Shown here piece after piece: positions 34,850 through 35,472 of a stretch of 64,000 nt of DNA. Both the position numbers and the translations under genes were made by a program. The DNA is from Lentisphaeria bacterium (lineage in GTDB: Bacteria > Verrucomicrobiota > Lentisphaeria > Victivallales > Victivallaceae): assembly GCA_017504435.1 (NCBI GenBank), contig JAFVRD010000045.1:1-64000 (forward strand). Direction: 5' to 3'. How positions within the stretch are numbered: the stretch's first letter is position 1; the number at the start of each line of letters is the position of its first letter. The notes under the pieces are model-generated. The model made no database searches, was not told the DNA's origin, and saw only the letters and a program-made list of their open reading frames with translations.

Positions 34850-34923
34850 AGACCTGTGGTGTAACGGTAGCACAAGTGATTCTGGTTCACTTTGTTGAGG
34901 TTCGAATCCTTACAGGTCTGCCA
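34850..34923 (+). tRNA. tRNA-Gln (anticodon CTG), CCA encoded
   Basis: Acceptor stem AGACCTG / CAGGTCT, anticodon stem AGTGA / TCACT with loop TTCTGGT (anticodon CTG), T loop TTCGAAT, G discriminator and encoded CCA at 34921-34923. Its last 19 bases are the seed of the tandem array that follows. Confidence 0.94.
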
Positions 34924-35397
34924 TTTTTTTTGTTTAAATGTTTGTGGCAGGCACCAGGAATCCTGGGATAACAGTCTGTGTGCCATTCACGAAAATAAAT
35001 TTTCTTCATAACACACAATACTGTTATTTTTTACAACGTTTGCCAACGTTGTCAGGATTCGTTTGCGGGAGGTTGCCTTCGTTTCACTCAGGCTCGTCGG
35101 GCGGGGCCCTCCGTCAAATCCTTACAGGTCTGCCATTTTTTTGTTTAAATGTTTGTGGCAGGCACCAAGTATCCTGTGATAACAGTTTGTGTGTCATTCT
35201 CGAAAATAAATTTTCTTCATAACACACAATTCTGTTATTTTTTACAACGTTTGCCAACGTTGTCAGGATTCGTTTGCGGGAGGTTGCCTTCGTTTCACTC
35301 AGGCTCGTCGGGCGGGGCCCTCCGTCGAATCCTTACAGGTCTGCCATTTTTTTTGTTTAAATGTTCGTGGCAGGCACCAAGTATCCTGTGATAACAG
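34905..35397 (+). repeat. Tandem ~211-bp repeat carrying the tRNA-Gln 3' end (2.3 copies)
   Basis: Each unit begins with (G/A)AATCC-TTACAGGTCTGCCA, the tRNA 3' end, followed by a T run. Unit starts are at 34905, 35117 and 35328 (spacing 212 and 211). The third copy stops after ATAACAG at 35397. Units differ by few substitutions and T-run length. Inside each unit are a hairpin ATAACAGT...GTGTG / CACAC...ACTGTTAT (copy 1: 34968-35027) ending in TTTTTT, a perfect hairpin ACAACGTT-TGCC-AACGTTGT (35033-35052), and a GC-rich GGAGG...CCTCC segment. Open frames across it repeat the same peptide and look incidental. No integrase is present. Confidence 0.95.
34968..35032 (+). terminator. Possible terminator of tRNA-Gln (repeated in unit 2)
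   Basis: Arms ATAACAGT-CT-GTGTG and CACAC-AAT-ACTGTTAT with a 29-base loop, then six T. The long loop makes termination uncertain. Confidence 0.45.
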
Positions 35398-35425
35398 ACA
35401 AACGTATGTCTTTTTTGCAGTGGAG

Positions 35426-35472
35426 CAGTCTGCAAGCGGCGGCATAAGCCGCTTTTGTCCCGGCACAGACTG
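35426..35472. other. Two-part stem-loop between tandem array and dispersed repeat
   Basis: Outer arms CAGTCTG (35426-35432) / CAGACTG (35466-35472) enclose inner arms AAGCGGC (35434-35440) / GCCGCTT (35448-35454). It is not followed by a T tract. No gene is seen between 35398 and 35561. Confidence 0.6.

Follow-up and report, generated by a model that had tools for sequence, protein, structure and literature searches.

Tandem 200-bp units behind tRNA genes of Lentisphaerota gut bacteria as possible miniature elements of the tRNA 3' end

A tandem array of structured units without a gene follows the tRNA-Gln(CTG) gene in the stretch of DNA analysed here (the window, 64,000 nucleotides from a Lentisphaeria bacterium whose genome comprises 2.26 Mb in 61 contigs), and each unit ends in the exact 3' end (19-mer) of the tRNA that precedes it. 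Relatives with the same anatomy are attached to many tRNAs, each with a matching tail. Moreover, near-identical units stand behind different tRNAs of one genome, the same tRNA sites are occupied in some relatives and unoccupied in others, and the arm of the unit shows compensatory changes. The most likely reading is that the units are miniature non-coding, non-autonomous elements which entered at tRNA 3' ends and were afterwards multiplied in tandem.

The tRNA 3' end and the array of about 211 bp described in a first-pass annotation proved to be real. TRF reported a tandem repeat at 34905-35397 (period 211, 2.3 copies, 96% matches, score 916), ARAGORN placed the tRNA gene, and the 19-mer AATCCTTACAGGTCTGCCA, which is the end of tRNA-Gln, is present exactly at 34905, 35117 and 35328. 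The repeats are spaced by 211/212 bases and occupy 474 bases behind tRNA-Gln, with units 1 and 2 being 96% identical. As described, each unit contains a GC-rich arm and two hairpins rich in AT, one of them with T6 behind it. No gene is evident either: the ORFs spanning the array are repeat artefacts of 80-117 aa, and Rfam scans of the array, with gathering and permissive thresholds, matched the tRNA alone and no known RNA family. Two details had to be corrected. The last 19 bases of the tRNA are indeed repeated, but the copied part truly starts at C56 in the T-loop and measures 21 nt. Likewise, the GC-rich arm is present, but rather than being an independent hairpin it interrupts the T-loop of the copied T-arm as an insert. 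The features of the array are the following:

34850..34923, + strand: tRNA-Gln(CTG), intact, CCA included and encoded (ARAGORN, Rfam RF00005)
34903-34923, + strand: copied end of tRNA-Gln, last 21 nt, from C56 to CCA
34924..35135, + strand: unit 1, with T-run, spacer, P1-P3 domain, arm and tail
34958..35060, + strand: structured domain of unit 1, P1 enclosing P2 and P3 (from folds)
34958-34965 and 35053-35060, + strand: P1 of unit 1, GAATCCTG paired with CAGGATTC
about 34968-35028, + strand: P2 of unit 1, then T6, terminator-like
35033-35052, + strand: P3 of unit 1
35071..35121, + strand: arm 1, GGTT + 40-nt two-hairpin insert (35075-35114) + CAAATCC (covariance model R1, 73 bits)
35115-35135, + strand: tail of unit 1, one T-loop mismatch (CAAATCC)
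35136..35346, + strand: unit 2, same order as unit 1
35282..35332, + strand: arm 2, GGTT + 40-nt insert (35286-35325) + CGAATCC (covariance model R1, 77.8 bits)
35326-35346, + strand: tail of unit 2, identical to the 3' end of tRNA-Gln
35347..35397, + strand: partial third unit, first 51 nt only, followed by unrelated sequence

Behind the CCA of the tRNA, a unit consists of a T-run, a spacer, a domain closed by P1 (with P2 and P3 inside), the GC-rich arm and the tRNA end. P2 is a long hairpin followed by a T-run, which gives it a terminator-like appearance. The arm has the form GGTT, two hairpins, CGAATCC...CCA, that is, a T-arm plus acceptor end in which an interruption between T55 and C56 divides the T-loop. 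The insert forms a pair of hairpins, which in the cleanest copies make a three-way junction with the T-stem, and a TC/TC internal loop is frequent in both. Unit 1 of the window folds with -67.7 kcal/mol (z = -4.5), and 0 of 200 shuffles were equally good. A long-range pairing of the window unit with the acceptor strand of the tail was considered and dropped, since it is not evident in other units.

The fold of the arm is conserved among relatives. In the first arm alignment, the share of paired cells was 90.0%, compared with 82.6% for shuffles, and changes on both sides were present in 8 of the 17 pairs. Using 28 held-out arms, which had no part in devising the structure (the window arm served as alignment reference), 90.6% of the cells in the T-stem and first hairpin were paired versus 75.6% in shuffles; the covariation score was 0.39 versus 0.14 for shuffled arms, a value reached by none of 500 shuffles. 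An enclosing helix of the P1 type is predicted in 81 of the 83 bodies from relatives, with widely different sequences. Although the T-stem strand on the element side pairs with the tail, it has the same sequence as the tRNA strand in just 9 of 79 cases. It is therefore no simple copy of a core, which weighs against inserted elements. The idea that P1 is a copy of the T-arm of its own tRNA was not supported by a permutation test (73 of 1000). Furthermore, compensatory changes follow an insertion at locus L148, which points to selection on a folded nucleic acid and likewise weighs against inserted elements, and in the Thr units of genome G011 a change in the tail brings T-stem pairing back.

Short-unit arrays of 82 and 116 bases were observed at L081:1986-2568 (tRNA-Gly of G029) and L126 (tRNA-Leu, G000:C38), respectively; their units keep the arm and the T-stem, and the acceptor part of the tail is gone. 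An extra small hairpin, GTCCTCC...GGAGGA, lies in the tail of L223 (about 2790-2830) and in the arm of L081 (about 2170-2210), and is possibly another mobile palindrome.

Concerning the distribution of the family, the DNA search yielded relatives in 25 of the 33 remaining genomes of the genus, and a single one in a different genus of the same family. The arm covariance model (R1) matched 31 of the 34 genomes of the genus and, at family level, 41 of 78 genomes from 6 of 19 genera, with nothing outside the family in a 289-genome sample of the phylum. In a pattern search of genome contigs, 14 loci were found with the looser pattern, all of them in Lentisphaerota MAGs (one from sheep colon), and the stricter arm pattern had 0 matches. 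The family resides in gut bacteria of Lentisphaerota.

About 205 arms were placed on loci. For 168 of them there is a same-strand tRNA upstream within 3 kb, and many of the arms without such a tRNA are near contig ends. The tRNAs belong to 20 isoacceptors: Gln, Glu (2), Leu (2), Thr, Gly, Arg (2), Ser (4), Pro (3), Tyr, Asp, Lys and Cys. The first arm typically starts 105-160 nt past the CCA (90-170 nt behind the tRNA at 83 loci), and the tail is usually the 21-nt end of the unit's own tRNA, including the T-loop variants CGAATCC, CGACTCC, CGATTCC, CGAGTCC and CAAGTCC. At the family loci the tRNA is intact and its displaced 3' end appears as a direct repeat at the far junction, and no tail copy was found at arm-less tRNAs of the same loci. 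These matching tails behind about 20 isoacceptors support the first-pass suggestion of a tandem integrant or satellite, non-autonomous and dependent on a tRNA site, and the units are not confined to the window, having relatives at many tRNA genes. The copy numbers of arrays are lower bounds, as contigs often break there and short-read assembly may collapse repeats. The tRNA-Tyr arrays L053, L065, L066, L190 and L194 also present weaker arm matches (20-35 bits) on the opposite strand, inside or adjacent to them.

Evidence for mobility comes from comparisons within and between genomes. In G028, the units behind Glu-ttc and Glu-ctc are 99% identical with unrelated upstream regions, and each tail has the distinguishing base of its own tRNA. 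Units behind three Ser tRNAs of G009 are 97-100% identical, and those behind Arg and Glu tRNAs of G017 are 90% identical. At L059, L124 and L141, the tail matches a different isoacceptor than that of the neighbouring tRNA. For 37 of the 83 bodies, the closest one is found at the corresponding tRNA of another species; for many others, it stands at a different tRNA.

The junctions can be read where a site is occupied in one species and unoccupied in another, for tRNA-Arg and tRNA-Glu and not for the tRNA-Gln of the window. In G017 (L224), the CCA of the unoccupied tRNA-Arg(acg) is directly followed by AATATTAGCCCTC; in G020 (L223), the CCA is followed by AATATTA, the unit and a second CCA, and then by AATATTAGCCCTC, so AATATTA is also present on the proximal side. 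Similarly, an integrase-bearing flank directly follows the unoccupied tRNA-Glu in G029 (L220), and the same flank follows the tail of the unit in G008 (L142). On contig C40 of the window genome, tRNA-Glu also has a unit before this flank, where the integrase gene is eroded. These junctions indicate that the unit was inserted at the 3' end of the tRNA and that the duplicated segment starts in the T-loop and ends a few bases beyond the CCA. Together with the near-identical units behind different tRNAs of one genome, the clean junctions in unoccupied relatives support the integrant reading.

If the units are inserted elements, the break point would lie in the T-loop, after GGTT. The tRNA would be left intact and the copy of its 3' end, from C56 to CCA with a few following bases, would come to lie at the far side of the unit, adjoining the two-hairpin arm of the element. 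Strand exchange would probably take place in trans, by tRNA-specific tyrosine integrases like those in sister genomes, and could involve a circular or excised form of the unit. Single units may then have given rise to arrays on the spot, by tandem duplication from one copied tRNA end to the next.

Sister genomes encode 440-444 aa tyrosine integrases at a distance of 108-460 bp behind the genes for tRNA-Ser, tRNA-Glu and tRNA-Arg. The place directly behind a tRNA is the classical position of an island integrase, and these enzymes are plausible movers in trans. Nevertheless, the link is circumstantial, because no intact 440-aa integrase was found in the window genome (a remnant at site C40 only) or in G012, despite their many arms. 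For the same reason, the window array is probably fixed in its genome. Behind the integrase genes, the sequence examined contained no attR copy of the tRNA end. The integrases of L219-L224 have no second attachment site detectable nearby, and behind those of L221, L223 and L224 the other strand has a possible small reading frame of the helix-turn-helix, excisionase-like type. A phage source was rejected, as searches of viral contigs with the arm patterns and with the Glu-site integrase had no matches.

The main rival is an RNA module like rtT, in which the tRNA transcript would read into the units and these would be structured, processed RNAs (or terminators or decoys) with a tRNA-like 3' end, copied through local duplication and through gene conversion from one tRNA gene to another, under selection for the fold. 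This is a possibility we hold only tentatively, and it is mutually compatible with the miniature element. Its precedent is the tyrT array of E. coli with the rtT RNA (Rfam RF00391; Bosl and Kersten 1991, as cited in PMC2965389), so the first-pass statement that no named element fits does not hold. In E. coli K-12, tandem 178-base units behind tyrV each end in the exact 19-nt end of tRNA-Tyr, as in the present family, and one unit lies between tyrT and tyrV. As read from the sequence, the T-arm is also split there by a hairpin-rich insert (AAGGTTCG, insert, AATCCTTCCCCCACCACCA), placed between G57 and A58, one step further into the T-loop than T55/C56 here. That shared geometry comes with an annotated RNA product (rttR), which favours the RNA module, as do the covariation of the held-out arms (90.6% versus 75.6% paired, 0.39 versus 0.14), the P1 helix in 81 of 83 bodies, the terminator-like P2, the restored T-stem pairing in the Thr units of G011, and the fact that for many loci the bodies are most alike between the same tRNAs of different species. 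However, the 90% identical Arg and Glu units and the insertions with exact flanks are hard to obtain from local duplication alone. Moreover, the RtT covariance model (RF00391) had 0 matches in the 34 genomes of the genus, with a positive E. coli control, so the units are not the same RNA family as rtT.

The E. coli unit differs further in sequence, overlaps the annotated tpr gene, and is restricted to one locus and one tRNA, whereas the Lentisphaerota units use many tRNAs. The tyrT array is the closest known case and the organisation found here is of a known kind; a similar array is thus known at one E. coli tRNA locus, and the mobile, genus-wide family is new. The first-pass alternative of a duplicated small RNA or terminator module is conceivable, given the conserved fold with compensatory changes and tandem copies that resemble plain duplications; the first-pass interpretation as a whole is partly supported.

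An enzyme making a staggered cut at the tRNA 3' end (transposase- or Cas1-like), with the tail as a target-site duplication from C56 to about 7 nt past the CCA, is unlikely. It would directly account for the tails that copy the T-loop variant of their own tRNA and for the AATATTA duplication behind tRNA-Arg, but the tails of L059, L124 and L141 match another isoacceptor, which is what an end carried along by the element would give. Candidate enzymes are also missing from part of the carriers. The Y1 transposase that REP/RAYT systems require has no match in 4 of the 8 arm-rich genomes tested (G020, G017, G012 and G015), and RVT_1 is absent from 4 of 8 (G000, G029, G020 and G012), so a RAYT/REP and a reverse-transcriptase origin were both discarded.

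A tRNA-anchored counterpart of integrons is rather improbable. Integrases resident behind tRNA genes would add 200-bp cassettes, occasionally with cargo, at the tRNA end, and the arm with the T-stem would be the recombination site, as folded single-stranded DNA or RNA. Integron cassette arrays also consist of small tandem units that each end in an imperfect palindrome, and an integrase gene lies beside some targets. In contrast, the target here is a tRNA and the units have no gene. The arms begin with GGTTGC and then pyrimidines in nearly all copies, and the unit boundary reads GTTGCC, which does not match the attC core (R box) GTTRRRY. Two loci contain longer segments: the third tRNA-Lys unit at L199:1232-2119 (G282) holds a 1.4-kb segment with a BRO-N/Fic-domain gene, a possible cargo, and at L168:360-2042 (G020:C39) two Arg-type arms at a distance of 2.07 kb flank a 560-aa ORF.

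Plain replication slippage at the window locus alone would explain the 96% identity of its units and the truncated third one, but this very improbable account covers copy number and not origin, and as a full explanation it is already contradicted by the recurrence of arm and tail behind about 20 isoacceptors in 31 of 34 genomes. As a later step in the history of an inserted element, local duplication does fit: the window units are 96% identical mutually versus about 76% to the nearest body of another species, arrays of 82- or 116-base units exist, and several arrays, including that of the window, close with an additional body that lacks both arm and tail, which matches local duplication better than repeated integration. 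The tandem copies would arise by slippage or unequal exchange.

Displaced ends are also known among the genomic islands and cis-mobilizable elements that target tRNA or tmRNA genes, for example from the ssrA islands of Dehalococcoides, inserted at the centre of the T-loop with displaced 20-bp ends and tandem accumulation (PMC3146451). Those islands are of kilobase size and use one gene and serine recombinases, whereas the present units measure about 200 bp, carry neither a gene nor a recombinase, and are found at many tRNAs. The miniature elements would rank among the smallest that use tRNA genes as insertion sites, and tRNA 3'-end repeats alone should not be taken as proof of genomic islands. 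The E. coli tyrT repeats have so far been an isolated curiosity, and a genus-wide family suggests that this organisation is recurrent and mobile. Moreover, about 20 isoacceptors provide many natural replicates for testing how such arrays form and whether they affect tRNA expression.

Two other repeats were observed in the window. Directly behind the partial third unit, 35398-35470 is occupied by part of a GC-rich dispersed repeat (ACAAACGTATGTC...GGCGGCATAAGCCGC), and copies of this repeat near several contig ends (C45, the end of C43, C24, C61, C59, C40 and C1) apparently break the assembly of this genome. Finally, a 9-base tandem repeat, CAGCAAAAT, is present in 17.7 copies at 39-197.
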